Shown in pieces: positions 28,101 to 40,113 of a stretch of 40,794 nt of DNA. The notes beneath the pieces are model-generated. The model ran no database searches, was not told the DNA's origin, and was given only the letters and a program-made list of their open reading frames with translations. The position numbers and the translations under genes are program-made. Within the stretch, counting starts at the first letter, position 1. Each line of letters starts with the position of its first letter. The stretch is from Bacillota bacterium. Its GTDB lineage: Bacteria > Bacillota > Clostridia > Peptostreptococcales > Anaerovoracaceae. The stretch spans positions 1 through 40,794 of the forward strand of contig JAFRVY010000012.1 in the NCBI GenBank assembly GCA_017438285.1, written 5' to 3'.

Positions 28101-28474
28101 TCGATAACCAGTTCCTCATCAGCAGGCTGAGCCTGAGCCTCTCCGCCATTCTCTTCGGCTGCCTGCGCGGCACCGGAGTCGCCTCCCGTCTCACCGCCGG
28201 ATCCTTCGTCTGCATCCATGGATACTTCTACCGGAGCAGGCTCTTCCTTCTTCTCTTCCTGAGCAGGTGCAGGCGCCGGCGTCTCTACAGTTTTTGTTTC
28301 CGTGACCACGTTATCCTGCTGCATGTCTTCAGCAGTGATCTCCTCGGCTCTCAGAAGCCTGTCAGAAGAATAAGAAAGACCCACTCCCGCGACCAGCACG
28401 AATGCCAGTACCAGGGCCAGAGCCCTGCGAAGAATGCGTCTTGTCTTCATGTCTATCTTTCCTATTGGTTTCAT
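16184..28474 (-). CDS. Giant 4096-residue repeat surface protein (InlB-like, MucBP-like and YDG/MBG-like repeats) with three-helix membrane anchor
   Basis: A predicted adhesin or scaffold, exported and kept in the membrane. In order it has a signal peptide (about 1-43, RRALALVLAFVLVAGVG) and an acidic Pro/Glu stretch to about 140. InlB/Listeria-Bacteroides type repeats (about 141-1058) contain units such as FAGWYADPE...LYAKWT, and MucBP-like units (1058-1300) contain IVRYVDEEGNALA and VTVHYVDMAGSKIA. About 29 YDG/MBG-like units (1309-3900; 27 YDG, 2 YNG) follow. A Gly/Ser linker then leads to the anchor (about 3975-4096) with WAILNLI, a charged loop, FFITEDL and a third helix. There is no LPXTG. 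The ATG overlaps the stop of the 131-residue gene (ATGA), with GGAGG six bases upstream. An ATG eight codons in is the alternative start. Binding partner unknown. Confidence 0.88.
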   Translation of the reverse strand: MKPIGKIDMKTRRILRRALALVLAFVLVAGVGLSYSSDRLLRAEEITAEDMQQDNVVTETKTVETPAPAPAQEEKKEEPAPVEVSMDADEGSGGETGGDSGAAQAAEENGGEAQAQPADEELVIESKPAEETEEPAEEFRVVSFYDRDAELYKKVEVEKGKAIGDKIPPAIPREDYEAHWAIGKIVQGGQGNEIKVTGNRITGKFTPSEDTVIVPDYDKVTRTVTFYDREGGNVIEGGVKKVTADTSYCLNDIPQPPARDGYAGRWVYSGGAFTNSVQVTQDMSVWAVYDQNVFTVTFKVGDETYRTDTYFSGDKLDLPSEPAAEGRTFAGWFSGDTEYKGGENVTSDLTLDAAFTDQYRVVFVIDDGEGNTERLSQYFRTDGQKIGTMPQDPFVAGKVFDKWVNQDTGEEITAATIVNGNITAVASFRDVGVYSVTSEYYYVNDSGKEVTFSTDLIQVESSQLPYTLTAPASIQTDPSQVSGSPVYFPETPSVTLNQNDFDGNRHAAVRIKFVKRTATYDVVYKLKNLNDDGYTEIERVKGVQGVLNSYVTPPVKVYDYYTLELAESTKITKASGQEVPVLYERKNVQLTFETNGGSYVAGVTAPYGSEENLPAANPEREGYTFAGWYADPELSQKVTGSVTLNGDTTLYAKWTGRSVNYTIVYMCEKYNDNGTSSSFVYDNSKTAEAVVGSTVSATSAPAYSKAHYEADNAQNAASNVIIAADGSSVLRVYYKLKEYKLDYNLNNNSSSTTMKKDGTTYKGNSSTRYSISVKLGQSLDGLWPTTDNATFSRSGYSFVGWRTASSSGTTYVTKQTFVTSDLLPTSGTSKTYYANWQSKTTTYTINYYLQNADNNDYTLSSEYSQTLNAQSNASFSAKTIKGYTNVESKNTQQGNTYNFYYNRDTYKVDYFFGGNLLKTNSDVKFDAHISTLNWTPSAAQCDVDNDYTFAGWYDNPSCQGDPYSFDRMPASNLALYAKWTAPTYTVSFVDADDASLQPAKSQTVEKYKKAEKPANPAKSGYAFDGWYADADGNTLFDWNTQITKDTTVYACWVRKNLKYIVRYVDEEGNALASDKEVSNPNLVTGQTVTELPVAVAGYRPAESSKTLVLADENNVIEFVYSAKSDVTSYKVRYLIDPEEGYGSEVAVADEKIVDDVPGETSSVIETAAAVDYGKLYAAVPALDGIEFHPDAAQKTLVLSADSAGSVLTFYYSGFKHADVTVHYVDMAGSKIAADHVEKLKVGKTFTLNRAVNEGWDLYKAVSGNAITGDEAGSDYKITEETTANGLEFTLFYQKKATITALSASKQYDGKVLKLPEEQVKVEGLKDGHTLGSIDFTYENADADSGDGRLAAGIATVTPKDAVIAGAPSDDYYSIRYISGTLEVSKINVTIRIEPDRWTGAAYTGEEYRAGFTNPNKKAADYVIISHSGYSEAYLDKVWDAITAKATYDENGKGLKYYGISEKNAGDYSYGIDVTLADLPEDDNYSVGLFVRPGRLHILPKDASVSTGSASKGYDGTALTQEDASITGLVADDEGKVSAKGTGSQTEPGSSKNTYSIDWGTVAAGNYNIVSEQLGTLTVTPGAVVLTAASGSKTYDGKALTNAAVTASGLPEGFKAEASATGSQTDAGSSANVVDETYVIRNAEGKDVTDMFTVTERIDGTLTVNRAPLNITTGSASKPYDGKPLTNDEAKIEGLVNGETAAVAATGSQTDPGSSSNTYSIDWGNTNAANYYITETPGTLTVTENSAEVTLTAPSASKTYDGAPLTADGTGDAKVTASGLPAGFTVEATASGSRTDAGTSDNVINKGYVIRNAAGEDKTSNFKNIALINGTLTVNKAPVTVTTGSASKAYDGSALTDNEAAITGLVNDETAEVTPTGSQTEVGTGQNTANINWGTAKPDNYQVTQNLGTLTVTANNNAVTLTAPSDSKVYDGTALTANGSGEKKVTADGLPEGFTVEATATGSQTDAGSSPNVVNDQYVIRNAGGQDRTANFTNVIKAEGTLTVSKAAVTVTTGSANKAYDGTALTNGDASIEGLVNGETATVTATGSQTEPGSGDNTYSIEWGSAKAGNYSVSEVLGTLLITENDAEVTITAPSDSKVYDGTALTADGTGEKKIAVSGLPEGFVVDAVATGTQTDAGTSVNAIGEGYAIRNSAGADKTACFTNVKTVNGELTVTPKEVKVTTGSATKQYDGTALTNAEAAIEGLVTGETATAVASGTITEPGTEPNTYDITWGSVNADNYTITEALGTLTVTENSAKVTLTAPSDSKVYDGAALTADGSGEKKVIASGLPEGFTAEATASGEQTDAGDSKNTVNDGYVIRNAAGEDKTSLFTNVTKADGTLTVTPKAVTISTGSASKPYDGEPLKSDVVSIEGLAGEETVGLEATGSIKEKGSKPNSYKITWAANGNEFSAKKANYTVTENLGTLTITDSNVEVTLTAPSAHKTYDGQALTADGTDENNKVIAAGLPKGFTVEATASGSQTDAGSSANVVNDGYVIKNAAGEDKTSNFKNVMKVDGTLTVNPKSVTITTGDASKAYDGTALTNADARIEGLAAGETYTLEATGSVTEVGSEPNSYSMTWAGEDNAYTAKAGNYTVAENIGTLTVTTSGAEITLTAESGEKVYDGSELTNPKVNVTGLPAGFTAEATAKGGQKDAGASANVVKDNYVIKNAAGENKTSNFTNIKKVDGLLTVTKAPLTITTGSGKKAYDGTALTSSEASVEGLVGNDRAKVTATGSQTDVGTSSNTYSIDWGIFGLFTNENNYQIEEKLGTLEVTANNDEIVLTAPNAEKAYDGTPLNADGEVTASGLPNGFTVAATASGSQTDAGSSASTVNEGYAILDSGSVNRTAFFTNVKTADGTLTVSKRKVTFTSADDEKVYDGTALINNSVVTGGDGFASGEGASFSVTGSQKDAGSSANAFTYILDGGTKADNYEVTTAEGTLTVTAINDKVTVTVTEHSGSEKYDGSIKTVKGYDAAADNALYMAGDFGFSGNDTVSGTSAGSYDMELKPEDFTNTSKNFTNVAFVINDGTLQIGKRSLSINSESGEKVYDGIPLTKHEISVTGDGFADGEGAMYSFTGSQTVPGASRNEFAYTLAQGVSADNYIITTALGMLTVTSRPDDAKFEVTVQAASGKALYDGSEHSVNGFVDGISGEIVTGNIGVKAGGHKYTVSGLEASASATDAGSYTVGVTGKAVVKDENGNDVTSEFIVKPIPGSLEISKRSVIMTSGSATQKYNGKPLTNSNVEVTGNGFASGEGASYNVTGSQTIPGMSPNTFSYTLNEGTSENNYNFETVEGQLTVTSRDARYSIVLRPSGMETMYDGAEKTVSGFESLSFTVDGSVYTVEGVSAERTATHAGTYPVNVTGNAVVRDAAGNDVTSQFEVTSMAANLSIGKRSVTLTSADAEKAYDGSALTATEVTVSGDGFAEGEGASYTVSGSRILPGASFNTFTYALNEGTAEGDYDIGTVFGTLTVTNRPDDAKYEVKVKAASGSAVYDGSEHSVSGLIDGISGKTVTDSIEVMVNGHKYTVSGLSASASATNAGSYKVGITGTPVVSDEGGNDVSSEFMVKMVPGTLNIGKRSVIMTSGSATHAYNGKPLTNSDMTVTGDGFADGEGAAYEFTGTKTLVGVADNTFEYTLNDGTLAGNYDISKVYGKLNVTNRDAKYVLTMSPNFATEMYDGEEHSVSGFISTKAVVEGETYEISGLTAGAAGTDAGTYDVSVTGTAVVKDKDGNDVTDQFSVVSENATLTITPRSVLLRSADESAEYDGKAHTGSGKITVEGDGFAGNDGVVITPTASRTLVGATPNTFDWSFSAGTKAGNYNVETAYGLLSIVNREAQYEIRMKANSDTVEYDGEEHSVNGFEKNEFEVEGSKYTVEDVEAEARGTEAGVYSTDINGTAKVSDAGGNDVTEQFAVSYESGSLTITAVESGETPTGDSGNPGSGPDGSGGSGSGAGTTGSGLDIDTIIENGVPVAAAPSGYWAILNLIMMIANVLGGLYMIFRRYRDEDDDSDDYEGQDAAADDTEQNRRRKRGLSVIVTVALAIIAPVVFFITEDLTNTPALFDKYTLLMAVMLIAAIVFIINGKKDSDEKTEEEGAY
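16740..24610 (-). repeat. Array of about 29 YDG/MBG-like protein repeats
   Basis: Units average about 90 codons. Each has a core such as SASKAYDGTALT followed by TATGSQTDAGSS and a closing TLTVT strand. Two alternating forms are clear in the middle of the array; the C-terminal units are more divergent (YDGSEHSV form). Confidence 0.85.
21665..23705 (-). repeat. Higher-order tandem repeat with an exact 510-base period
   Basis: The codons for the YDG core (gtcata on the plus strand) recur at 21665, 22175, 22685 and 23195. That is exactly 510 bases (170 codons) apart, each period holding one long and one short unit. The next copy leftward (21137) is offset by 528 because of a six-codon insertion. 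The constant period points to recent expansion or homogenisation. Confidence 0.75.
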
Positions 28475-28866
28475 CGTTTGCCTCCCGCGGTATCACCGCT
28501 GCGGTCACCGGCCGTCCCGGCCTTCATTAGTCTGCGAGCTTTTCTGCGTCTCATTCCTGAAAGTACGAATATTGCATAGGCAATAACCACCACAGCCAAG
28601 GTCCATACCATGACCATGCGTCTTGTGTTGTCGAAAGCCTCAGAACCTACGGTAGCCGCGAGCGGCACCTCTGATTCCTCGATATCCGCTGCCGGTATGT
28701 CCTCAACAACCTCTATGGTGATATCCGGCTTATCGCCGTCATTTTCTTCGTCATTCTCCTCGGCAAGCGTAGTCTGTGCAGATAATGCCAAAACCATGAG
28801 CATCATTACGCCCGCCGCAAGCACAAGTGCAAGGAGTCTTCTGAATTTCAAATTGCGCGTGTCCAT
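28471..28866 (-). CDS. Small signal-peptide membrane protein coupled to the giant surface protein
   Basis: 131 residues, not recognised by family. It has an N-terminal signal peptide (about 1-35, RRLLALVLAAGVMMLMVLALSA) and a short acidic extracellular stretch (36-80). One membrane helix follows (about 85-104, VMVWTLAVVVIAYAIFVLSG), then a strongly basic cytoplasmic tail, RRRKARR. GGAGG sits seven bases before its ATG. Its TGA overlaps the ATG of the giant gene by the ATGA arrangement, so the two are translationally coupled. The signal peptide resembles that of the giant protein. It may be a chaperone, anchor partner or assembly factor; this is only inferred from position. It is preceded by its own TGACG-type promoter. 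Confidence 0.75.
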   Translation of the reverse strand: MDTRNLKFRRLLALVLAAGVMMLMVLALSAQTTLAEENDEENDGDKPDITIEVVEDIPAADIEESEVPLAATVGSEAFDNTRRMVMVWTLAVVVIAYAIFVLSGMRRRKARRLMKAGTAGDRSGDTAGGKR

Positions 28867-28909: not shown

Positions 28910-28942
28910 ATTATAAATGAAAAAGCGTCATTATTGCCGTCA
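28910..28942 (-). promoter_or_regulatory. TGACG direct-repeat promoter in front of the 131-residue gene and the giant gene
   Basis: On the minus strand TGACGG (28942-28937), six bases, TGACGC (28930-28925), nine bases, then a perfect -10 box TATAAT (28915-28910). It lies between the sigma-factor gene and the 131-residue gene and separates the regulatory genes from the structural ones. Confidence 0.7.
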
Positions 28943-28976
28943 ATCAAAGCGGCGAATGGCTTGAAATAAGGGCTTT

Positions 28977-30209
28977 TTAGTTGATTTTTACCGCTAAATG
29001 AAGCGTGTTCCCGATATGATCGGGTATATATATGTCCCATGATTCCTTCGGGTATTCAAAGAGCACACCGTCTTCACCGGCACTTACAGGATGGTACGTC
29101 TTACCGGAAGCCGATACAGCATATATATCTCTGTAGTCCACCCCGATGCCGGCATCAGATACCTTAAGAAGGAAACCGTCATTGAGAGTCTTGCTCTCCA
29201 GGAGTTGCGGTCCCTCAGAGTCCACGGCAGTTACGTCATAGCTGTTGCTCACTCTCTGATGATTGATCAGCTCTACGCAGATATCCAGGCTGCCGTTACG
29301 CGTCGGCTCAACGGTAAACTCTTTAGCCCCTGCTTCGTATACAGGCAGGCTGTGCTCCTTAATTGTGGCCAGCACCTTGCCCACAGGCAGGATAGAATCG
29401 ACTTCGACGGTATACACCGGAAGCCCGCGCTCGCCTGCTTCATCCACCTTTACCGTATAGCCCGGCAGCACGAACATAAGCGGGAGCATCATGAACACAA
29501 GCAGCGCCATAGCGATGATGACTCTCTGCAGCGTGAACCTTTCCTTCCTGTATACAGCATATGAAGAAATGGTATCCATAGGGACCGTGTTTGCGTCGCT
29601 TCCGCAGGTGCTGAAGACGTGGTCGAGTATCTCTGAAGTCTCAAGAGTCGTGAGTTCAGAGAACGATGCTGCCAGCCTGCTCTTTCGGGAAGAAGCCCTG
29701 CGGGCAGTTTTTGCTGCGCTTCCCGCCGCATGCTTCGCGAGATGCCGTCTTCCCATCCTTACGAATCTCGTGATGGTGCGCCTGCCGACGTTCATGAGTT
29801 CTGCTATTTCGCTGTCCGACAGTCCCTGTTCAAGGCTCATCAGCATGATCTGTGATTCCGCGAGAGGCAGATTCAGTATCTGCGACAGTGTGTAGTCCGA
29901 ATTTCCGACAGACCTCATCCCGGCCTTTCCCATGTATTTCAGAGCCGAGATACGGCATATCCACGGCATGAAAAGATCCGCCTTGGCAAGTGACGGGAGT
30001 GACCTGTGAACTGCCGTGAACACCTCAGGCAGGACCTCTATCGCTTCCTCCCTGCTTCCGAACAGGTGCGTCAGATAGCAGAGCTGACGGTCGGCAACGG
30101 ACGCAAAAAGCTCGGCAAAAGCATTGCTGTTGCCCTGCTTTGCCCTTGTCACCAGTCCGTTGAGGTAGGACTGGTCAAGCCTGTCGAATGTGCGTCCCGC
30201 TTTTTTCAT
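28977..30209 (-). CDS. Sigma-70/ECF-type factor fused to a transmembrane helix and an extracytoplasmic domain
   Basis: 410 residues. Residues 15-90 look like sigma region 2 (NAFAELFASVADRQLCYLTH, EVFTAVHRSLPSL, FMPWICRIS). Residues 105-162 look like region 4 with a helix-turn-helix, LSDSEIAELMNVGRRTITRF. A basic linker follows, then a single membrane helix (about 227-248, QRVIIAMALLVFMMLPLMFV). An outer domain of about 160 residues comes next (250-410) with VSDAGIGVDYRDIYAV and WDIYIPDHIGNTL, which suggests an Ig-like fold. The open frame is continuous. It starts two bases after the GGDEF gene stop. The likely role is a membrane-held transcription factor for surface genes, but its targets are inferred. 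It could need proteolysis to act. Confidence 0.8.
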   Translation of the reverse strand: MKKAGRTFDRLDQSYLNGLVTRAKQGNSNAFAELFASVADRQLCYLTHLFGSREEAIEVLPEVFTAVHRSLPSLAKADLFMPWICRISALKYMGKAGMRSVGNSDYTLSQILNLPLAESQIMLMSLEQGLSDSEIAELMNVGRRTITRFVRMGRRHLAKHAAGSAAKTARRASSRKSRLAASFSELTTLETSEILDHVFSTCGSDANTVPMDTISSYAVYRKERFTLQRVIIAMALLVFMMLPLMFVLPGYTVKVDEAGERGLPVYTVEVDSILPVGKVLATIKEHSLPVYEAGAKEFTVEPTRNGSLDICVELINHQRVSNSYDVTAVDSEGPQLLESKTLNDGFLLKVSDAGIGVDYRDIYAVSASGKTYHPVSAGEDGVLFEYPKESWDIYIPDHIGNTLHLAVKIN

Positions 30210-30211
30210 CC

Positions 30212-30907
30212 CTACTTACTGTTTGCCTGTCTTGCCCTTTTATCCGAAAGTGCAACGAGTTCTGTTACTGTTTTTATATCTTCACCTTCATTGAATGCCG
30301 TACCGGCGCTGTATCTGATACGCGCGTCTTCATGCAATGCGTTTCTCTCATCAGTCAGAGATTCCACCGAATCGAGGAACCTCTCCAGACGCGTCTCTGT
30401 GCAATCCCTGAATATGGCCACAAACTTATTGCCTCCATTTCTTCCGATGAAGCAGGCTCTGCCCGCGGCAGTCTGAAGTATGGACGCGAATTCCTGTATG
30501 GCCATATCGCCTCCGCTGTGGCCATGAGCCTTGTTTATCTCGCTGAGGTTCGTCATATCTATCGTCACGACACCCATATCCTCAGGCAGCGGTCTTCCGT
30601 GAAACTGCCCGATATACGCGTCCACGCTGTATCTGTTTGCTATGCCTGTCAGCGCATCCGAATAGACCGCGTTGTCCAGCTCGCTGTTCTCGCGCCTCAT
30701 GTCCGCGTATGAACTGAAGTCATAGAGCAGGAAAAGGAACGACAGCCCGAGCGTCAGCCACAGCAGAACGCTGATGGTCCTGGCCGCCATATTTGTCGCT
30801 ATGAGCGCATAGAGCTCGCTGTTACGCAGTATGACCACGAGCGAGGCCGCCGTGATCGCTATGAGCAGCAGGAGCTGTATCGTCTTTATTCTGTCAAATT
30901 TTTTCAT
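30212..30907 (-). CDS. Membrane protein with a degenerate GGDEF domain
   Basis: 231 residues. Two membrane helices (about 11-27 and 43-62) precede a GGDEF-like domain (75-225). Family landmarks are DALTGIANRYS, VTIDMTNLSEINKAHGHSGGD and FIGRNGGNKFVAIF. The signature GGDEF reads GGNKF (158-162), so the metal-binding Asp/Glu pair is lost and diguanylate cyclase activity is unlikely. It may bind c-di-GMP or GTP, or act as a protein partner. It lies three bases after the signal peptidase gene and two before the sigma-like gene, so all three share a transcript. Confidence 0.82.
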   Translation of the reverse strand: MKKFDRIKTIQLLLLIAITAASLVVILRNSELYALIATNMAARTISVLLWLTLGLSFLFLLYDFSSYADMRRENSELDNAVYSDALTGIANRYSVDAYIGQFHGRPLPEDMGVVTIDMTNLSEINKAHGHSGGDMAIQEFASILQTAAGRACFIGRNGGNKFVAIFRDCTETRLERFLDSVESLTDERNALHEDARIRYSAGTAFNEGEDIKTVTELVALSDKRARQANSK

Positions 30908-30910
30908 GTC

Positions 30911-31453
30911 TCAGAACCTCGTGATCCCGTCTCTGTTAATCTTAAGCACTACCTTGCCTTTTATCTGCCGCAGATTGACCTCGCCGAACATCCTAGAGTC
31001 CTTCGAGACCATCCTGTTGTCGCCAAGTACGAACACGTTGCCGTCGCGTACCTTGTACGGATATATGACAGCACCTGTCTCCTCTTCCGTGATTCCATTG
31101 GCGTGTTCATCAGCAATCTCCGTGCCGTCCACAAAGACCTTTCCGTCATATATGTCCACGCTGCTGCCTCCGGTCGCCATGACCCTTTTGATATAGAAGT
31201 CGCCTGACGGGACCCTCATGGAGACAATGTCTCCTTCCTTGTAGGTATGTGTCATTCTGTAATATACGACAAAATCCCCGTCCTTCAGAGTCGGATCCAT
31301 CGAGGCTCCGCTTACCACGGAAAACCCTATCACGAATCTGAATACGATAATGCACGCCACGATCGCCGCAACGAAAAACAGCGAGTCACGCAGCCAGCCA
31401 AGCTTGAGCCCGTCAAACTGGCCTAAAACCCTTCTGTCGCCTTTTTTACTCAT
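30911..31453 (-). CDS. lepB: Signal peptidase I
   Basis: Removes signal peptides from exported proteins at the outer face of the membrane. The 180 residues have one N-terminal membrane helix (about 22-44). The catalytic Ser51 is in SGASMDPTL, the Lys89 dyad partner is in DFYIKRVMATGG, and the box E motif GDNRMVSKDSR is present. All match the bacterial (P-type) enzyme, not the archaeal/SipW form. It is first in the unit with the degenerate GGDEF and sigma-like genes. This suggests a peptidase dedicated to the neighbouring surface proteins, though a general role cannot be excluded. No Shine-Dalgarno is seen before the ATG, and a TAATAT box lies just six bases upstream. Confidence 0.92.
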   Translation of the reverse strand: MSKKGDRRVLGQFDGLKLGWLRDSLFFVAAIVACIIVFRFVIGFSVVSGASMDPTLKDGDFVVYYRMTHTYKEGDIVSMRVPSGDFYIKRVMATGGSSVDIYDGKVFVDGTEIADEHANGITEEETGAVIYPYKVRDGNVFVLGDNRMVSKDSRMFGEVNLRQIKGKVVLKINRDGITRF

Positions 31454-31459
31454 ATATAT

Positions 31460-31465
31460 ATATTA
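31460..31465 (-). promoter_or_regulatory. Possible -10 box for the lepB unit
   Basis: TAATAT lies six bases before the lepB ATG inside a TA-rich run. The -35 region is weak (TTTTAA at a 17-base spacing). If used, the mRNA would begin at or very near the start codon. Confidence 0.3.
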
Positions 31466-31502
31466 GTCGATTACGGCCCTTTTTAAAATGTTTTTTAACG
31501 AA

Positions 31503-31544
31503 ACAAGAGACAGCGAATTACGCTGTCTCTTGTCTTTTTGTTTT
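31503..31544. terminator. Terminator after the 1847-residue surface-protein gene
   Basis: A perfect 13-bp stem ACAAGAGACAGCG/CGCTGTCTCTTGT (31503-31515 and 31521-31533) with loop AATTA. The minus-strand side continues with TTTCGTT and the plus-strand side with CTTTTTGTTTT. It separates the 1847-residue gene from the lepB unit. Confidence 0.8.
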
Positions 31545-31569
31545 AGTCAGGCGTTATGCCTTACATGTT

Positions 31570-31980
31570 TTAGTTAGCTGCTTCCTCAGCTGTTTCCTGA
31601 TCGTCTTCAGCTTCAGCTGCCTTCTTGTTGAAGACTGCTGCGACAATCTGTACTGCCAGCATTGCTACCATCAGTACTGTCCACTTGTCGATCATTGCCA
31701 TCGGCAGGCTCATGTCCTCAGTGAGGAAGAATGTGATCGGTGCAGCAACTCCTGCGAGTGCTCCGGCGATCTTAGCAGCGAGCATCTTCTTGCCCCTGTT
31801 ATCGTCTTCATCCTCTTCCTTATACATGTTGTCCTCGTCCTCGTCTTCATCCTCTTTCTTGCGGAAGAGTGCGATGACTGCGCCGAGTGCTGTAACGATT
31901 GCCGAGATCAGGTTGATCAGCGCCCATGTGCCTTCAGCCATAGGTGTAGGCTCATCAGGGATGATTGTCTCAGGCTCAGC
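31570..31980 (-). repeat. Near-identical anchor-coding segment, copy 1
   Basis: Aligns without gaps to 40310-40720 (constant offset 8740) over about 410 bases at very high identity. Identical runs exceed 50 bases around 31719-31790. It covers the anchor and part of the linker. Confidence 0.8.
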
Positions 31981-34900
31981 AGCAGGAACAGGTGCATCAG
32001 GAACAACTGCAGGTGTTACCGGTCCAGCAGGTGTTACAGCAGGACCACCAGGTGTCGGTGTAGGAGTCGGTGTTGGTGTAGGAGTCGGCTCATTCTGAGT
32101 CCAGCTTCCTGTAATCTCGACATCCGCATCCGGCATTTCAAATGATCCCGTTCTGCTCCAGCCACTGAAGGTGTAGCCGGTCATTGTAGGTGCGCTGGCA
32201 ACAGTTACGTTTGCACCTGTCGTATAGCTTGCAGGTGCAGGAACTGCCGGCGCGTTGGCCGGAATATTGCCTATGTATCTGTATGTAACAGTGTACTCGA
32301 CCGGCTTATCTTTGGACCATGTACCTGTGATCGTAACGTCTTCGTCAGGCATGCTGAATGATTCAGGCTTGTCCCAGCCTTCGAATGTGTAGCCTTCAAC
32401 TGCCTCAGGTGTAGGCGCTGCTTCTACTGTTGAGCCGTACTTAACATCCGTCTTCTCTGCAGGAGGGGTCGCTCCGCTCGGAACATCTCCTTCATAGACG
32501 TATGTTACTTTGTGCTTGTTGGCTGTCCATGTACCTGTGATTATGACGTCCTCGTCAGGCATCTCGAACGACTCGGCATTGTCCCAGCCTTCAAATGTGT
32601 AGCCTGTGACTGCCTCAGGTGTAGGCGCTGCTTCTACTGTTGAGCCGTACTTAACATCCGTCTTCTCTGCAGGAGGGTTAACTCCGCTCGGAACGTCTCC
32701 TTCATAGACGTATGTTACAGTGTGCTTGTTGGCAGACCATGTACCTGTGATCGTCACATCTTCATCAGGCATGCTGAACGATACAGCATTGTCCCAACCA
32801 TCGAATGTGTAGCCTTCAACTGCCGCAGGTGTCGGTGCAGCCTCTACTGTCTCACCGTACTCAACATCCGTCTTCGCTTCAGGAGGGTTAACTCCGCTCG
32901 GAACGTCTCCTTCATAGACGTATGTTACAGTGTGCTTGTTGAGCGACCATGTACCTGTGATCGTGACGTCCTCGTCAGGCATGCTGAACGATTCAGGCTC
33001 GTCCCATCCTTCGAATGTGTAGCCTTCAACTGCCTCAGGTGTAGGCGCCGCCTCTACTGTCTCACCGTACTCAACATCCGTCTTCGCTTCAGGAGGGTTA
33101 ACTCCGCTCGGAACATCTCCGTCATAGACGTATGTTACAGTGTGCTTGTTGGCTGTCCACTGTGCGTACAGGATATCATCACCATCTGTCAGTGTGTAGT
33201 CGTCACCCGGATCATATGATGTTCCTGATCCATCAATAGCGGTGTTCCATTCAACGAAGGTATATCCTTCTTTTTCGTACTCGTTGGCGCTGACCTCGAC
33301 ATCCTGTCCGGTCTTTCCGGATGTAGGATCCATCGGATCTCCTGTTCCGCCGTTGGCGTCGTAGTTCAGTTCGTCAAGCTTGCACCATACCGCGAACATC
33401 GCTTCATACTTTCTGTCGTTGTCCGCAGCTACTTCGGTTGCTTCCTTTGTGCAGGCTTCATCTGAGTAGAATGTGCCGTCCTTGTAGTAGATGAGAATGT
33501 CATCCTCATCGAGATCCTGCTCGAGTGCGAGGTCATCAGACTCCTCTACCTTTGCCCAGCCGAGGAATTCGTATCCTTCGCGCTCAGGAGCTGCCTGGAT
33601 AGGAACCGGTTCGTTGACCAGCAGCGTGCTATCCTCAACATCACCCGTTGGGACTTCAAGAGTATCGGTATGGAAGCACTCGCTGCCATCGTTCTTGAAC
33701 CAGCGGATATAAGTCTTCTCGAACGGGCCTTCATTAGTCTTGTTGTAGACTGCTACGACATGTATTTCTCCGGTCTTGGTAGCCTCAACATAGTTCTGGA
33801 TGAGGTCTTCCGTTATGTCGAACGTATTGCCAGGATAGTATACTGTGTCGAGAAGTGTTCCCTCACTGTCTTCAAGCTTCCATCCGACAAAGATGAATCC
33901 TTCGTTGACCGTTGGAGGCGCCGCGAGTACTACAGCTGAATCTGTAGCATACTTATAGTTGTCAGGCTGTTCATCGAGCGTTCCGCCTTCGCCCGCATCG
34001 TAGATGATGCTGACCTGTCCAGGCATACGCCACTTAGCGATCAGACTGACATCTGCCTCGATCTTTCCGAAGTCATATACGTTTCCTGCCGAGCCGTCTT
34101 CGTTCTTATAGAACCAACCTACAAGCTCATGCTTGTTATCGTAGCTGACATTCTGGAACAGGGAAGCTTTGTCGAGTACTGTATCCAGAGGAACATTGAA
34201 CTCTGCATCCTGTGTACCGCTGAGAGTACCGCCGTTCGGATCAAGGCTTACATGGTACTGCTTAGGTTCCCACTTAGCATATACCACCTTGTTAGCGGCA
34301 GGCATCTTTGAGCTCCAGTCAAACGGAGCTACTCCCTCAGGATCCTCGCACCAGCCTACGAAATTGTAGTGCTCTTTAGTAGGATCAGCGATCTTGTATC
34401 CTTCCAGAACATCCTCATACGGGATATTGGTCTTTGTGCCGACCGTCTCTCCTTCAGAAACGAATGTCAGAGTATACTTCTGCCTCTCGAACCTGATGCT
34501 CAAGTTGGTCGAGTTTACACGTGATCCTGCCTGTGTATTGGTCCAACCGGTTCCGTTGCTGTACGAAACAGCTTTGAAGCCTTCGTACTTCTCGGTGATC
34601 GTAAATGTACCGCCGGCTGTCGTCGTTACAGTATTAGTAGGAGTGCTCGGCCAGCTTCCGTCGATATTCTGCTTGTAGAATCTGATCGTATTGCTGCCTG
34701 AAGGGTTCGCGCCATACTGTGTAAGGACTGTATTGCCCTCAGATACACCACTCAGTCCCTCAAATTTGAACGCATCGAGGAACGTAAGATGTGTACCTCC
34801 GGCGTTCGGGTTCTGATACCACGCTCTGTCACTCGGCCATTCATAACCATTCGACTCGAGAGTCGAACCATAAAGACCGGTGTATTCAGCAACATCAGGC

Positions 34901-37113
34901 TCCTGCTCTGCTACGTATCTTGTTCCGGTATATTCCTTGTTTGTAGTGTAGAACCAGCCTTCATCATTGTGGCTTATTCCTACGACTGCTCCGTTAACGA
35001 CACCGTATCCGGAGTTGCCCTGGGCGCCCTCGAAATAACGAGTACCGTAATAACGCTGATTGCCATAACGCCACGCGCCGTTACGGTAAGTCAACTGAAC
35101 CATCTGCCCGTCGACAAAGCCATACTGTGTACCTGTAGTACCGGAAGCCTGTCTGTAGGTAGTCCCGGAGTATGCATTCGGTGCCTGATAATAATAGTGA
35201 TAATCAGGGTTCCAATAAGATCCCTCATTTTCACGGCTCAGGGAAATATACTCGCCATCTACAAGGCCATACTGCTGCCCAGAGTCTGATGTCGTCTCTT
35301 CATATACTGTATGCGTTCCGTCAACAAATCTGATGGTAAGCAGATTCCTGTCATAGTACACGTTTACAACTGTTGTTCCGTCAGCCCTTACAGTCTCAGG
35401 TTCGATCACGATCCTGTTGCCGTAATGGAAACCCGTGAAATTGTAAGTCGTATACGACGTAAAGGCATCCGCGCTCAGTTTCTCACCGGTGGTGCCGGTC
35501 AGCTGCTCACTTGTTTCAAAGTCGTATGTCTTTGCGCTATCAGCTGCGTCCTTAGCGTCAGTTACTTTCTGCTTCCAGATGATAACTGTGTATTTTGCCT
35601 CGCCAGGGACCCACTTCGCGTACAGCGTGATATCTTTCTCGAGGCCTGTTCCGGACCATGCGAACGCTTCCGTGCAATCCTCGTCTTTGTACCAGCCGCC
35701 GAAGCTGTATCCAGGTCTCGTCGGATCTGCCGGTTTCTTTGTGGACAGGTCGTCATTATTTTTTACGAATACAGGACCTGTATATGTAGCGTCGCTGTCA
35801 GATGTCTCCCAATCAATGTTTTCATCGAAATGGATCCAGTGAGCATCAACTACACTCGCGTACAGTTTCTTGTTTTCTGTAACCGTGATCGTTGTTTCGG
35901 TGATCAGTTCGCCGCCATCTGTTTCCGACCATCCCTCGAAAGCGCTTGTGTCAGCCTTTGGGATAACGGTCCTGGAAGAAATGTCCAGAGTTCCTTCTGT
36001 TCCCGGAGGGCCGTCAACGGTAACTGTATCTACAGCAACGATACCGCGCTCATCATTCAGCTTCTCGCCGAGGAATGTGACGTAGTAAGTTGTTTCGATC
36101 TTGGCTACAACCTTGATGGTCTCAGTCTTTGGAACCGTGCTCTTCACTCCGAATGTCAGCTTCTCTCCCGGTGTTTCGCCTGATATCGTCTGATCTTCAG
36201 CGACATACCAGCCCTTGAAAGTCGAAGCTGCTCCGTCTCCGGCACCGAGTGTTCCAGGATCAAGAAGAGTATCACCAGACTTTATGTTCTGGGTTCCCTT
36301 CAGCTCGTCACCGACATAGAACTCGTAAGTTGCTACCGCATTGATGTCAGCGCTTGGGTCTTCCTCTTCAACAACGATATAGACCGAGAACTCATCCGAT
36401 TTGAATGTAGCCTCTCCGTTGTTGACGTTCTGGGTAACTACAGACGCGTCACCGTTATCAGCAATGTGGACTACACTCTGATTTGCCTGATTGTCCATGC
36501 CGCTCGCATTCATGTGAACAGACACAGCCTTCTTAGGCTCGATCTCTTTGCCCTCATAGCTGAAACTGATGTCTACAGCCTTGATCTTTGCAGCCTCTCC
36601 GCCGATCGCCTCTTCGACCGCGTCCTTGACTTCATCTGCACTGACGGCCTTTACGGACATCTTTGTGCCTTCAGGAAGTGCGCCTTCAGGTGCGTCTACG
36701 GACACCGAAACACCACCTGCGCTGCCCGAAAAGCTTTTAGCAGGATACTTTGTCTCTTCCTCAGCCTCATCTTTGAGGCTTTCTTCCGGCCCTTCGACCG
36801 CTGCAGGCTCCTCAGCTACCGGATCTTCCGACTCTTCCGCCGAGGCCGGCTCCGTTGCTTCCGGGGCTTCCAGTTCTGCTGTTGTCTCAGCGTCTGTTGC
36901 CGGCTCCTCTGCTGCTGGAGCAGGTTCCGGTGCTGGTGCAGGCTCCGAGACCTTTTCGGGTGCAGGTGCCGGTGCAGGTTCTTCCTGTACAACCGCAACA
37001 TCATCACTACTTTCATCAGCAAATGCCATTCTAGGCGATGGCATATAAGTGATGATCATTGCCGCGCACAGAAGAAAAGCCAGGAATCGTTTAATAGATT
37101 TGTTGCTTTTCAT
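31570..37113 (-). CDS. Large InlB-repeat surface protein (about 1847 residues) with three-helix membrane anchor
   Basis: A predicted adhesin. It has a signal peptide ending near residue 32 (FLAFLLCAAMIITYMPSPRM, then AFA) and a Pro/Glu/Ala-rich stretch to about 125. A beta-rich domain (about 130-250) ends in FSVYIVVEE. Many InlB-type repeats (YTFEGW, LYAKW) follow, with an aromatic YGxVxG insert near 610-750 and four near-identical 70-residue units (1322-1601) plus a divergent fifth. A Thr-Pro linker leads to the anchor (about 1724-1847) with WALINLI, the charged loop RKKEDEDEDE, FFLTEDMS and a third helix. There is no LPXTG. An in-frame GTG at 37131 overlaps the ribosome-binding site AAGGAGA, so I choose the ATG at 37113. 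It is a single-gene unit with its own terminator. Confidence 0.9.
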   Translation of the reverse strand: MKSNKSIKRFLAFLLCAAMIITYMPSPRMAFADESSDDVAVVQEEPAPAPAPEKVSEPAPAPEPAPAAEEPATDAETTAELEAPEATEPASAEESEDPVAEEPAAVEGPEESLKDEAEEETKYPAKSFSGSAGGVSVSVDAPEGALPEGTKMSVKAVSADEVKDAVEEAIGGEAAKIKAVDISFSYEGKEIEPKKAVSVHMNASGMDNQANQSVVHIADNGDASVVTQNVNNGEATFKSDEFSVYIVVEEEDPSADINAVATYEFYVGDELKGTQNIKSGDTLLDPGTLGAGDGAASTFKGWYVAEDQTISGETPGEKLTFGVKSTVPKTETIKVVAKIETTYYVTFLGEKLNDERGIVAVDTVTVDGPPGTEGTLDISSRTVIPKADTSAFEGWSETDGGELITETTITVTENKKLYASVVDAHWIHFDENIDWETSDSDATYTGPVFVKNNDDLSTKKPADPTRPGYSFGGWYKDEDCTEAFAWSGTGLEKDITLYAKWVPGEAKYTVIIWKQKVTDAKDAADSAKTYDFETSEQLTGTTGEKLSADAFTSYTTYNFTGFHYGNRIVIEPETVRADGTTVVNVYYDRNLLTIRFVDGTHTVYEETTSDSGQQYGLVDGEYISLSRENEGSYWNPDYHYYYQAPNAYSGTTYRQASGTTGTQYGFVDGQMVQLTYRNGAWRYGNQRYYGTRYFEGAQGNSGYGVVNGAVVGISHNDEGWFYTTNKEYTGTRYVAEQEPDVAEYTGLYGSTLESNGYEWPSDRAWYQNPNAGGTHLTFLDAFKFEGLSGVSEGNTVLTQYGANPSGSNTIRFYKQNIDGSWPSTPTNTVTTTAGGTFTITEKYEGFKAVSYSNGTGWTNTQAGSRVNSTNLSIRFERQKYTLTFVSEGETVGTKTNIPYEDVLEGYKIADPTKEHYNFVGWCEDPEGVAPFDWSSKMPAANKVVYAKWEPKQYHVSLDPNGGTLSGTQDAEFNVPLDTVLDKASLFQNVSYDNKHELVGWFYKNEDGSAGNVYDFGKIEADVSLIAKWRMPGQVSIIYDAGEGGTLDEQPDNYKYATDSAVVLAAPPTVNEGFIFVGWKLEDSEGTLLDTVYYPGNTFDITEDLIQNYVEATKTGEIHVVAVYNKTNEGPFEKTYIRWFKNDGSECFHTDTLEVPTGDVEDSTLLVNEPVPIQAAPEREGYEFLGWAKVEESDDLALEQDLDEDDILIYYKDGTFYSDEACTKEATEVAADNDRKYEAMFAVWCKLDELNYDANGGTGDPMDPTSGKTGQDVEVSANEYEKEGYTFVEWNTAIDGSGTSYDPGDDYTLTDGDDILYAQWTANKHTVTYVYDGDVPSGVNPPEAKTDVEYGETVEAAPTPEAVEGYTFEGWDEPESFSMPDEDVTITGTWSLNKHTVTYVYEGDVPSGVNPPEAKTDVEYGETVEAAPTPAAVEGYTFDGWDNAVSFSMPDEDVTITGTWSANKHTVTYVYEGDVPSGVNPPAEKTDVKYGSTVEAAPTPEAVTGYTFEGWDNAESFEMPDEDVIITGTWTANKHKVTYVYEGDVPSGATPPAEKTDVKYGSTVEAAPTPEAVEGYTFEGWDKPESFSMPDEDVTITGTWSKDKPVEYTVTYRYIGNIPANAPAVPAPASYTTGANVTVASAPTMTGYTFSGWSRTGSFEMPDADVEITGSWTQNEPTPTPTPTPTPTPGGPAVTPAGPVTPAVVPDAPVPAAEPETIIPDEPTPMAEGTWALINLISAIVTALGAVIALFRKKEDEDEDEDNMYKEEDEDDNRGKKMLAAKIAGALAGVAAPITFFLTEDMSLPMAMIDKWTVLMVAMLAVQIVAAVFNKKAAEAEDDQETAEEAAN
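32311..33150 (-). repeat. Four tandem 210-base (70-residue) units
   Basis: Units begin with NKHTVTYVYEGDVPSG and end with MPDEDVTITGTW. The marker catagacg recurs at 32493, 32703, 32913 and 33123, exactly 210 bases apart. A fifth, divergent unit follows (about 32100-32310). Such arrays can gain or lose units by slippage or recombination. Confidence 0.85.
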
Positions 37114-37282
37114 ATTGCCCTTCTCCTTCACTTGATATAGTAAATTATTGTTATATTGAGTTAAAAAGTTAGCATTGTTAACTGCAATAGTGCAATTTTA
37201 CTTGGTATAAAATTCTATCACACAACCTACACAAAATGCTCGCCTTTTCTTAATATTTCTTTATTTTCTTCAATAATGTATG

Positions 37283-37315
37283 AGTTTTGTGTAGAAAGCG
37301 TCATTTTGTTCGTCA
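37283..37315 (-). promoter_or_regulatory. TGACG direct-repeat site A
   Basis: TGACGA (37315-37310), six bases, TGACGC (37303-37298). The -10 position seen in the other copies reads AAAACT here, a poor box. This copy may bind the regulator without being a promoter, or may use TACATT further downstream. Confidence 0.45.
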
Positions 37316-37373
37316 ACAATGTGTTGGTCCGGTGACTTGACAAAGTCTTTCCCATACTCCTTTAATTTACCAA

Positions 37374-37406
37374 ATACTATCACCAAAAGCGTCATTAGTT
37401 CCGTCA
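37374..37406 (-). promoter_or_regulatory. TGACG direct-repeat promoter B
   Basis: TGACGG (37406-37401), six bases, TGACGC (37394-37389), nine bases, then TAGTAT (37379-37374). Spacing is identical to that of the site at 28910. Confidence 0.6.
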
Positions 37407-37508
37407 GTATTTTCAAGGCTTTTTGGTTTTTTTGAGCTTTTTCAACGTTTTAAAAATGTGTATGACAAACCTGCTGAAGCCAATGGCTCCGCCTCTTCTC
37501 ACATATAC

Positions 37509-37554
37509 ACATTACATTACATGGCGTCATTTTATCCGTCATATTAAAGCGTCA
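37509..37554 (-). promoter_or_regulatory. TGACG triple-repeat promoter C
   Basis: TGACGC (37554-37549), seven bases, TGACGG (37541-37536), six bases, TGACGC (37529-37524), nine bases, then TAATGT (37514-37509). It lies about 400 bases before the 1847-residue gene. Confidence 0.55.
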
Positions 37555-37612
37555 TTGTGCTTTGACTTAATGTCAAAACCCAGGGTTTCCAGCATGTTTA
37601 TCAAAAAGCAAA

Positions 37613-37640
37613 AGTGAGGCGGCTTTTCAGCCGCCTCACT
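37613..37640 (-). terminator. Terminator of the 710-residue surface-protein gene
   Basis: A perfect 12-bp stem AGTGAGGCGGCT/AGCCGCCTCACT (37613-37624 and 37629-37640) with a four-base loop. On the minus strand it is followed by TTTTGCTTTTTG. It lies 20 bases after the stop codon. Confidence 0.88.
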
Positions 37641-37661
37641 GAGTGTTACTGTGCCCTATTC

Positions 37662-39794
37662 TTAGTTAGCTGCCTCCTCAGCTGTCTCCATGCCGTCCTC
37701 TTCGATTTCAGAAGCCTTCTTGTTGAGTGCTGCTGCCAGGATCTGGACCGCCAGCATGATTACCATCAGTACTGTCCACTTGTCGAACATTGCCATCGGC
37801 AGGCTCATGTCTTCTGTCAGGAAGAATGTGATCGGTGCTGCAACTCCCGCAAGAGCTCCTGTGATTTTGGCCGCGAGCATTTTCTTAGCTCTGTTGTCGT
37901 CCTCATCCTTAGCTCTGTACATATCATCTTCGTCTTCCTCTTCTTTTCTGCGAAGGATCGCGATCACTGCGCCGAGTGCTGTGACGATAGCTGCGATCAG
38001 GTTGACCAGTGCCCATGTACCCTCCGCGAGAGGAGTCTTGTCGTCTGCAATGTTGACCATTTCTGCTGTAGGTGCTGTTGTAGGTACAGTATCCTCAACG
38101 ATAGTTGTTTCCTCTGCAACTTTTGCTACAGTCTTAGTATTCTTGCCCTTGTCAGGTGTTGTCTTAGGGGCTTCCGGCTGCTCAACAACAGGCTCGTCCT
38201 TCTTGATTTCTGCGAATCCTGCGTAAAGGTTGATTACCTTCTGATCTACAGCATCTCTTGTGATGGCAGGTGCCTCATATTCCGTTCCCTCAGCTACTTT
38301 TTCAGAATCTTTCTCGCTGCCTGCATACCATCCTGTGAAGTCATAGCCTTCAATCTTTTCAGGCTCGAATCCGTATGCTGCGATCTTTTCATCAAAGCTC
38401 TCCTTGGACTCTACCAGCTCACCATTTACGAAGTAGTTGACTGTGACCGATGGCTGCCACCATGCGTGGAAGCTTACTTTTTTTATGCCCTCACCCGCAG
38501 TGATAGTGACCTTCTCGCCTGCATCGTACTGTGCCCCTGTATCGTCATCTTCCCAGTAGAGGAATATGTAGTGCTTCGAGAGTTCCGGAGATTTTACCGA
38601 CGGATCTCTGAACTCGTGCGTGAGCGATGTGAATGCGGAACGGATACCGTTTGCGTTCTTGTTGGACCATGATCCGGATCCTGTCGAAACGTTGTCTATG
38701 TAATTCAGATCAAGTCCCGGAAGTTCTGTGATCTCGTATATCGGTGAGAATGTGAATGTGAGATCCTTCTCGAGCTTATAATTGGTCCCTTCGGATCCGC
38801 CTGCTGCGGCCTTTATCGAAATACTTGTGGCGGAATCTACTGTGAAGCTGTTTCCGTTGCTGTCTTTTGCTTCCCACTCGCCGGTGTATACATAGCGCCT
38901 GCCGTTGTATGTGAAGTTGGCATACATCGAATTGCCTTTGACAACTCCCGTGCTGCTTTCAAGCTTCTTGAGTTTAATCGTGGAGCCGTTTCCCCAGCCG
39001 ACAGATGAAGTCGATTCCTTATCTGCAACTGCGCCAGTCGAGCTCATGATGTCCGAGTATCTGATGGTCAGATTTACCGAAGCCGGGTGGGATACATACT
39101 CAGCATAGAGGTTTACATCAACGTTCTTGCCGTCTTCTGTGATGCCGCCCGCTTCCTCGTAGCTCATTGTGAGCGGAAATGCCGGAGCATTTCCCTTTGC
39201 ATCTTTCCAGGTCTTTGCGAACTCGGTAACCATGTTGCCATCTCCGCTCAGCTTTGTGTTCTTAACATATGTGTTTGCTGTTGCGAGAGTGATGCTTGTA
39301 GTGCTGTTGCCGGATGTTACGCTTCTTTTGATGCTTCTTGCTTCTACATAGTTACCATCAGCATTCTTCTGATAGAAGTGATATGTAACATATATAGTCT
39401 TTGCCAGAGTCACAGCAGGCTTTACAGGCTCCTGTTCTACTGCAATTTCTTCTACGGCTTTCTCCTCTTCAGCCTCGTCCTTAGCTGCTTCAGCTTCGTT
39501 GACTGCAGCGGACTCTTCCTTTACGAGCTGCTGCATCTCAGCGGCCTCAAGCTTCTCTTCTGACTTGGTTTCTTCTTTCCTCTCAGGCTCTGCGACCTTT
39601 TCTTCTGTCTTAGCTGTTTCCTTGATATCTTCCTTCTTTTCTTCTACGATCTGCTCTGCCTGCTTCTCAGGCTCTGCAGCAGCTTCCTCACCATCCTGCG
39701 CAAATGCGTAGAATGAAGCCGGCATATATGACAGTGTCATTGCCATGCACATGAGGAATACTACGATTCTTCTAAGTAAGTTGTTGCTTTTCAT
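37662..39794 (-). CDS. Surface protein of 710 residues with InlB-like domains and three-helix membrane anchor
   Basis: Paralogue of the 1847-residue protein. The signal peptide (about 1-32, MKSNNLLRRIVVFLMCMAM, then YMPASFYAFA) shares the MKSN start and the YMP motif. A Glu/Lys/Ala-rich, probably helical stretch follows (33-128). A region of beta-rich repeats comes next (130-540) with YVTYHFYQKNADGNYVEA and FTGWYAGSEKDSE. A Pro/Thr linker leads to the anchor (about 590-710) with WALVNLI, FFLTEDMS and DKWTVLMV. No sorting signal is seen. The ATG at 39794 has AAGGAGA upstream. The gene is a single unit between TGACG-type promoters and its own terminator. The role is probably adhesion or surface display; the ligand is unknown. 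Confidence 0.87.
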   Translation of the reverse strand: MKSNNLLRRIVVFLMCMAMTLSYMPASFYAFAQDGEEAAAEPEKQAEQIVEEKKEDIKETAKTEEKVAEPERKEETKSEEKLEAAEMQQLVKEESAAVNEAEAAKDEAEEEKAVEEIAVEQEPVKPAVTLAKTIYVTYHFYQKNADGNYVEARSIKRSVTSGNSTTSITLATANTYVKNTKLSGDGNMVTEFAKTWKDAKGNAPAFPLTMSYEEAGGITEDGKNVDVNLYAEYVSHPASVNLTIRYSDIMSSTGAVADKESTSSVGWGNGSTIKLKKLESSTGVVKGNSMYANFTYNGRRYVYTGEWEAKDSNGNSFTVDSATSISIKAAAGGSEGTNYKLEKDLTFTFSPIYEITELPGLDLNYIDNVSTGSGSWSNKNANGIRSAFTSLTHEFRDPSVKSPELSKHYIFLYWEDDDTGAQYDAGEKVTITAGEGIKKVSFHAWWQPSVTVNYFVNGELVESKESFDEKIAAYGFEPEKIEGYDFTGWYAGSEKDSEKVAEGTEYEAPAITRDAVDQKVINLYAGFAEIKKDEPVVEQPEAPKTTPDKGKNTKTVAKVAEETTIVEDTVPTTAPTAEMVNIADDKTPLAEGTWALVNLIAAIVTALGAVIAILRRKEEEDEDDMYRAKDEDDNRAKKMLAAKITGALAGVAAPITFFLTEDMSLPMAMFDKWTVLMVIMLAVQILAAALNKKASEIEEDGMETAEEAAN

Positions 39795-39846
39795 TTTATT
39801 TCTCCTTCCAACTTTTATTATTTATCTCGCTTTTTCTTACAGTTTT

Positions 39847-39879
39847 AGTTTACGGTTTTAACCGTCATTTTGATCGTCA
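39847..39879 (-). promoter_or_regulatory. TGACG direct-repeat promoter D
   Basis: TGACGA (39879-39874), six bases, TGACGG (39867-39862), nine bases, then TAAACT (39852-39847). The predicted leader to the 710-residue gene is about 45 bases, a good distance for its main promoter. Confidence 0.6.
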
Positions 39880-40067
39880 TTTTGTTATCAGGCTTGCAAC
39901 TTGACAGATCCTTCGGACACGGTTTTCCGGCCCAGATGATCCTATTGCCACTGTTTTCTCAAACCCAGTGTTTCCAACGGGTTGGCTGTTATGACCACCC
40001 CTCTGTCAGTGGTGCTGAGCGCACTAATGCTGTCGAAACCGCATACTTTGCGCCTTCATCCATATAC

Positions 40068-40113
40068 ATATTAATTATCGAAGCGTCATTTTAACCGTCA
40101 TTTATAAGCGTCA
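40068..40113 (-). promoter_or_regulatory. TGACG triple-repeat promoter E
   Basis: TGACGC (40113-40108), seven bases, TGACGG (40100-40095), six bases, TGACGC (40088-40083), nine bases, then TAATAT (40073-40068). It has the same triple layout and spacing as site C. Confidence 0.6.

Follow-up and report, generated by a model that had tools for sequence, protein, structure and literature searches.

A shared TGACG direct-repeat element before surface-protein genes of uncultured Clostridia, probably a promoter read by a SARP-type activator

The window analysed here, a 40,794-nucleotide (nt) stretch of DNA from a Bacillota bacterium (contig JAFRVY010000012.1, positions 1-40,794, assembly GCA_017438285.1), contains a shared element of the form TGACG-N7-TGACG-N10-TAnnnT in front of its surface-protein genes. 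The element recurs in the genus, which we take to be UBA1191 of Anaerovoracaceae, where it lies before genes for secreted and GGDEF proteins, is found directly behind a gene for a SARP/BTAD-type regulator and co-occurs with that gene. It is probably an activator-dependent promoter of the sigma-A type, the repeats of which would be bound by a SARP/BTAD-type activator. Binding, activation and the presence of the same regulator in the window's organism are all three what we infer from sequence.

The element in the window and in its own genome

Six minus-strand sites carrying TGACG direct repeats exactly 12 bp apart had been listed in an original prediction made from the window's letters alone, and all six are found where they had been placed (Table 1). 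A scan of the whole window returned eight TGACG-N7-TGACG pairs, where 0.07 were expected and none of 100 dinucleotide shuffles reached eight. When the period was varied from 5 to 25 on the minus strand, period 12 gave eight pairs and no other period more than two. Six of the eight pairs sit upstream of surface-protein genes, and at five of these a TAnnnT box follows ten bases after the second TGACG, the exception being 37283, where AAAACT is found instead. Two or more direct repeats, the feature examined for operator type, are present in all eight pairs, with a third TGACG 13 bp further upstream at two of the six upstream sites (37509 and 40068). These details agree with the original prediction, as does the metabolic half of the window, in which the whole-window scan found no pair. 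The two remaining pairs (30551-30567 and 28737-28753, minus strand), absent from that prediction, lie inside open reading frames (ORFs) and are without TAnnnT at N10.

The offset of the box was assessed on ten noncoding pairs of the window's own genome, of which the window contributes six and contigs C25 and C27 four. TAnnnT stands at N10 in eight of them, and no other offset between N3 and N19 has it more than once. No -35 box was found at the ten sites, where the six bases lying 17 bp before the -10 box agree with TTGACA at two positions at most. Extending TGACG by two bases gives a heptamer, its boundary being our choice, that stops 8 bp short of TAnnnT. In the assembly as a whole (1.65 Mb, 126 contigs, 79.9% complete), the full element occurs eight times compared to none for the reversed control. 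Five of these matches belong to the window; C25 carries two more and C27 a single one. Those on C25 stand before a gene resembling signal peptidase (PF10502 marginally over cut-off), behind which a surface protein of 2830 amino acids (aa) or more is encoded. The match on C27 stands before an ORF that is 506 aa or longer and begins like a signal peptide. All full matches in the genome precede surface-protein genes or an adjoining signal-peptidase-like gene. The paired repeat without the -10 box was found 29 times against 8 for its control, so much of the specificity is added by the box. Finally, no c-di-GMP (cyclic di-GMP) riboswitch was detected, none of 4227 Rfam families reaching its gathering score in seven stretches that included the window.

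Table 1. Elements and associated genes in the window (coordinates as in the 40,794-nt stretch; signal-peptide-like starts judged by eye)
Feature	Positions	Strand	Description
Element 1	28910..28942	-	TGACG-N7-TGACG-N10-TATAAT; 44 nt upstream of the gene for the 131-aa signal-peptide protein
Element 2	37283..37315	-	TGACG pair with AAAACT where TAnnnT is expected; nearest gene encodes the 1853-aa surface protein
Element 3	37374..37406	-	Full match, TAGTAT; ~243 nt upstream of the 1853-aa ORF
Element 4	37509..37541	-	Full match, TAATGT; ~378 nt upstream of the 1853-aa ORF; third TGACG at 37550-37554
Element 5	39847..39879	-	Full match, TAAACT; 53 nt upstream of the gene for the 710-aa surface protein
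Element 6	40068..40100	-	Full match, TAATAT; 274 nt upstream of the 710-aa gene; third TGACG at 40109-40113
131-aa protein	28471..28866	-	Signal-peptide-like start; first gene behind element 1
4096-aa surface protein	16184..28474	-	Listeria-Bacteroides repeats, YDG, MBG, MucBP; start overlapped by the 131-aa gene
1853-aa surface protein	31570..37131	-	Listeria-Bacteroides (InlB-type) repeats; likely ATG at 37113 with signal peptide
710-aa protein	37662..39794	-	Signal-peptide-like start; no Pfam match at E 1e-4
Sigma-like protein	28977..30209	-	410 aa; similarity to ECF regions 2 and 4, followed by a hydrophobic stretch resembling a transmembrane segment and by one more domain

Recurrence within the genus

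The element was searched in a first set of 61 genomes, comprising the window's own, 36 of the same genus and 24 from other families. Exact matches were found in 15, namely the own genome and 14 of the 36 congeners (several of these matches being coding), but in none of the 24 from other families. In total, the 37 genus genomes yielded 35 matches against 4 for the control, and the other families 0 against 3. Twelve further members searched later brought the genus to 49 genomes; for G063, G064, G066, G067 and G068 the exact counts are the zero-mismatch rows among the matches listed in a one-mismatch search. Coding and noncoding sites were sorted by eye from the covering ORFs, which left out G004 C18, G014 C37, G027, G030, G034, G036, G061, G062, G069 and G064 C2 as coding. 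G064 C2 has the same letters as G014 C37, and G064 C87 was treated as coding without inspection. The ambiguous G021 site, within the first codons of a 366-aa ORF, was counted as noncoding.

In the relatives the -10 box reads TAtAAT. Of 26 distinct sites, 22 have an A seven nt after the box. Tandem pairs of elements 100-101 bp apart are found in G008, G018, G020 and G070. Such tandem elements precede a single surface gene at loci L148, L152 and L154, and likewise at L149, where the gene lies off the contig; behind each of these elements, where transcription is expected to start, stands a block resembling AGGGTCA or AGGGCCA.

A SARP-type gene as candidate regulator

Three element matches had a BTAD-domain gene on one side and a GGDEF gene on the other. 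A profile (A1) of the encoded SARP protein was searched against the 49 genus genomes, in which "close SARP" denotes matches at E<1e-200, found in nine genomes, together with a fragment at a contig end in G010; any match at E<=1e-8 was obtained in 19 of the 49. Among the nine full-length cases, the element begins 5-9 nt past the SARP stop codon in seven, six being exact and one having TGACA as the second repeat. In the named record L118 it is likewise found behind the SARP gene, and a surface-like protein of 1000 aa is encoded next. The same nine genomes hold 23 exact matches, two of them within ORFs (G004 C18 and G014 C37) and 21 noncoding. Of the latter, 12 precede genes with a signal-peptide-like start (by eye), 6 lie between the SARP gene and a GGDEF-type gene (tested with Pfam in G007 and G018, by eye in the others), 2 (G018 C19) reach a contig end and the remaining one (G004 C7:50351) has a short ORF behind it. 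At the surface-gene sites a AGGGTCACAA-like stretch is often common after the -10 box, near the expected start.

Across 48 genomes (excluding G072, for which exact matches were not listed), noncoding sites occur in 9 of the 10 genomes with a close SARP compared to 5 of the 38 others (Fisher test, p=1e-5), and the association holds when the window's genome is taken out (9/10 against 4/37, p=5e-6). Seen from the other side, the 14 genomes with noncoding sites include nine with a close and two (G011 and G065) with a diverged SARP, the five exceptions to the association being these two, the window's genome, G021 and G032. Together, the searches of the own genome and of the genus support the original prediction of a promoter element shared by surface-protein genes, with the repeats serving as activator sites where a -35 box would otherwise stand.

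When eight spacers behind SARP genes were aligned, 18 of the 19 invariant columns fell inside the element, while the downstream genes differed. This bears on a non-regulatory explanation, in which duplication of related regions ahead of surface-protein genes would have spread the repeats. The surroundings of some sites are indeed nearly identical (37374 and C25:15468; 40068 and C25:15334), as duplication would produce. However, a short block conserved inside variable spacers before differing genes, and a 10-bp TAnnnT offset kept at eight of ten noncoding sites, speak against it, and we regard duplication as a very improbable origin of the pattern.

The picture is less uniform for diverged homologues. 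In G011 and G065, one element immediately precedes the "SARP2" gene itself, with a different inner sequence and an inverted copy nearby, and these were not used as support; in the other SARP2 cases (G004 C15 and G069) no such site was found in the stretches inspected. Nor was the TGACG element found beside the Lachnospiraceae SARPs L120-L123 (~39-42% identical) or at L116, whose SARP is 58-59% identical and whose next ORF begins at the SARP stop.

Architecture and neighbourhood of the SARP protein

PF03704 (BTAD) is above cut-off in three of three SARP proteins of the relatives. One SARP gene of a relative is located at L113:4946-6172 (record DBYH01000011.1). The fold of the N-terminal ~250 residues matches 8k60, 8hvr and 2fez, with AfsR and EmbR as best matches, that to EmbR covering residues 10-263. 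Assignment of an OmpR-type DNA-binding domain rests on this fold, since Pfam gave no separate match for that domain. The C-terminus is a degenerate GGDEF domain, in which YGQGQY replaces YGGEEF and the active site is lost, while the RxxD of the I-site is kept; this RxxD suggests that the relatives' SARP may be a c-di-GMP-responsive activator.

In 10 of 10 genomes the close SARP gene immediately follows a gene for a T2SSE ATPase (pilT-like by our reading), as more distant SARPs do in G009, G019, G024 and G062. Genes ahead of the T2SSE gene resemble type IV pilus genes (by eye), and those behind the SARP gene encode GGDEF and response-regulator/EAL proteins, with a hybrid histidine kinase and surface proteins nearby. 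The names pilT, Hpt and signal peptide reflect a reading of the sequences unless Pfam or NCBIfam is cited. The Lachnospiraceae homologues (~39-42% identical) sit behind genes for secreted surface-like proteins. Diverged SARPs at L066, L067, L068, L075 and L120-L123, in the genus and in Lachnospiraceae, adjoin secreted surface-like proteins, and behind them comes a protein of ~160 aa whose start resembles YxGxPxGxVxCVD (ADE or CVD). The named SARP-bearing relatives are uncultured Clostridiales or Firmicutes genomes, two of them from goat ileum and jejunum and one being Firmicutes bacterium UBA1191; the RUG records are presumably from rumen.

Other genes of the window

Between the signal peptidase I gene and the sigma-like gene of the window lies a gene (30212-30907, minus strand) encoding an N-terminal hydrophobic part and a GGDEF domain with GGNKF as active site and no RxxD before it. 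An ABC exporter with a fused C-terminal GNAT acetyltransferase domain is encoded at 5066-7438 (minus strand). A RarA/MgsA paralogue (3184-4530, minus strand) divides the genus: ten other genomes carry it at 67-73% identity, the remaining ones have a form of 37-41% identity, and five genomes (G010, G012, G036, G065 and G072) carry both forms.

Alternative readers of the element

The original prediction had also offered the repeats as the recognition element of the linked sigma-like protein. In such a reading, a sigma factor fused to a membrane part would be freed by a surface signal. The protein is similar to ECF regions 2 and 4, no SARP was found in the window's assembly, and element 1 begins ~34 nt past the stop of the sigma-like gene, much as the element stands behind the SARP gene in relatives. 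Across the genus, the sigma-like protein has relatives in 14 other genomes (15 of 49 in all), with the ECF-like and membrane-anchored halves in separate neighbouring frames in 12 of the 14, compared to one protein in the window; the match carries a stop in G013 and G033, and a T2SSE (pilT-like) gene lies within ~5 kb in 8 of the 15. The expected co-occurrence of element and cognate sigma (relatives of P0003) was not seen in the 48 genomes: the element is present in 4 of 15 genomes with the gene and in 10 of 33 without it (p=1), and ten genomes with noncoding sites (G004, G007, G008, G018, G020, G070, G071, G011, G021 and G065) gave no sigma-like match. This distribution rules the sigma-like protein out as the reader in relatives. 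A sigma factor needs one -35 box ~16-17 bp from the -10, unlike the two equal repeats found here at 10 and 22 bp from a -10 box of the sigma-A type. Owing to the place of element 1 directly behind its gene, a small probability is kept for this reader in the window, though we judge it improbable.

Several observations weigh against a SARP-type reader, foremost among them the window's own genome. Neither profile A1, PF03704 nor A2 at E up to 10 found a SARP/BTAD gene in the 80%-complete assembly, in which pilT was not found either, and the inner spacer of the window's repeats is AAAA, compared to TTT-rich in the relatives. Judged by the single RarA paralogue, which is a poor measure of kinship, A1 gave no match in six of the ten nearest genomes, including the closest three (G072, G001 and G025); the other four have a diverged SARP (G065 and G069), a faint match (G036) or the close type (G010), and G010, with its contig-end fragment, has no exact site. 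Elsewhere in the genus, G008 and G014 lack the element behind the SARP gene and have it before a surface-protein gene within ~5 kb. Moreover, G021 and G032 each carry a lone plausible site yet no BTAD match, and that of G032 lies 176 nt before a gene that is transporter-like and does not encode a surface protein. The one-mismatch search ran near its control level among the matches listed (77 against 53 as totals for the ten SARP genomes; for the genome of the window, 15 compared to 6), and only exact matches were used since these counts were barely above control. The period, too, is 12 bp and not the 11 or 22 bp of a classical SARP operator. As it misses the classical rule, the element is said here to work like a SARP operator, and not to be a classical one.

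A possible explanation for the first of these points is that in the window's organism the element is read by a different DNA-binding protein, be it a response regulator of the OmpR type or a SARP that has diverged strongly. OmpR-type regulators also bind direct repeats beside the -10 box, and the missing SARP, both in the assembly and in six of the ten RarA-nearest genomes, as well as the differing inner spacer would fit such a substitution. The repeat, its 12-bp period, the 10-bp distance to the -10 and the class of target are, however, all the same as in the SARP genomes. In addition, the T2SSE ATPase is above the family cut-off in 44 of 49 genus genomes, whereas the window's assembly gave only a match below it (four others are also without), which makes missing contigs plausible, if unproven, and the absence of a SARP weak evidence. 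A different reader in the window's organism appears unlikely, and a regulator of the SARP type, as judged from the relatives, is the probable one for the window's elements.

Proposed mechanism and significance

In the proposed mechanism, housekeeping (sigma-A) polymerase would read the TAnnnT -10 box of a promoter that has no -35. In the place of the latter, two and sometimes three direct repeats (a heptamer of roughly TGACGsT, period 12 bp) would bind a side-by-side SARP dimer, which would recruit RNA polymerase to large surface-protein genes and, in relatives, also to genes of c-di-GMP metabolism. More tentatively, the activator may be a c-di-GMP-responsive SARP, with a degenerate GGDEF domain and intact I-site, usually encoded beside type IV pilus-like genes and switching giant adhesins together with GGDEF and signalling genes, such that pilus, second messenger and adhesins would be joined in one circuit.

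If true, this would provide a readable promoter code for the large surface proteins of uncultured gut and rumen Clostridia, making regulons predictable from sequence, and would extend SARP-type activation from actinobacterial antibiotic control to adhesin control in Clostridia. Should the I-site bind c-di-GMP, it would also represent a class of c-di-GMP transcription factor not found in the literature searched. That literature consisted of open-licence papers and is no proof of novelty; in it, no SARP/BTAD regulator joined to GGDEF or c-di-GMP was found, and the text of a review of c-di-GMP effectors (PMC12564702) contains neither "SARP" nor "BTAD".

Comparison with known systems

That no regulator had been named for this exact pattern, as the original prediction stated, holds for the letters as far as we know, but the architecture resembles the operators of the SARP family. 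As in the afs box of AfsR/afsS, direct repeats replace a poor or absent -35, sometimes with a third repeat (parts of PMC10936776 and PMC5930380). In the portion of PMC10936776 used here, the repeats of the afs box begin at -40 and -29 and its centre is at -29.5, the 3' repeats of SARP operators lie 8 bp from the -10, and two SARP protomers touch sigma region 4, the beta flap and the alpha C-terminal domain; the part of PMC5930380 on PimR describes a SARP operator with 10-bp units. The heptamer TGACGsT similarly ends 8 bp before the -10 and, if the A seven nt after the -10 is taken as +1, the repeats start at -39 and -27, compared to near -40 and -28 in the same parts of the two sources (PMC10936776, PMC5930380). 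The systems differ in host (Clostridia), in the TGACG sequence and in targets, which are surface-protein and c-di-GMP genes and not antibiotic clusters; in addition, no gene for the regulator was found in the assembly of the window's genome.

Like AfsR, EmbR and other PF03704 regulators, the relatives' protein combines the N-terminal fold of ~250 residues with a BTAD match. The C-terminal domain of EmbR is FHA, and the close SARP gene differs from those of AfsR and EmbR in its place directly behind a T2SSE (pilT-like) gene. The C-terminal degenerate GGDEF domain also sets the protein apart from AfsR, which has NOD/TPR there (PMC10936776, in the portion used). In the loss of its active site and the retention of RxxD, this domain is like degenerate GGDEF receptors of c-di-GMP; unlike them, it is fused to a SARP activator, with c-di-GMP binding only predicted. 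A family best known from antibiotic-making bacteria is thus the best candidate here for a switch of surface proteins, perhaps one that is wired to c-di-GMP.
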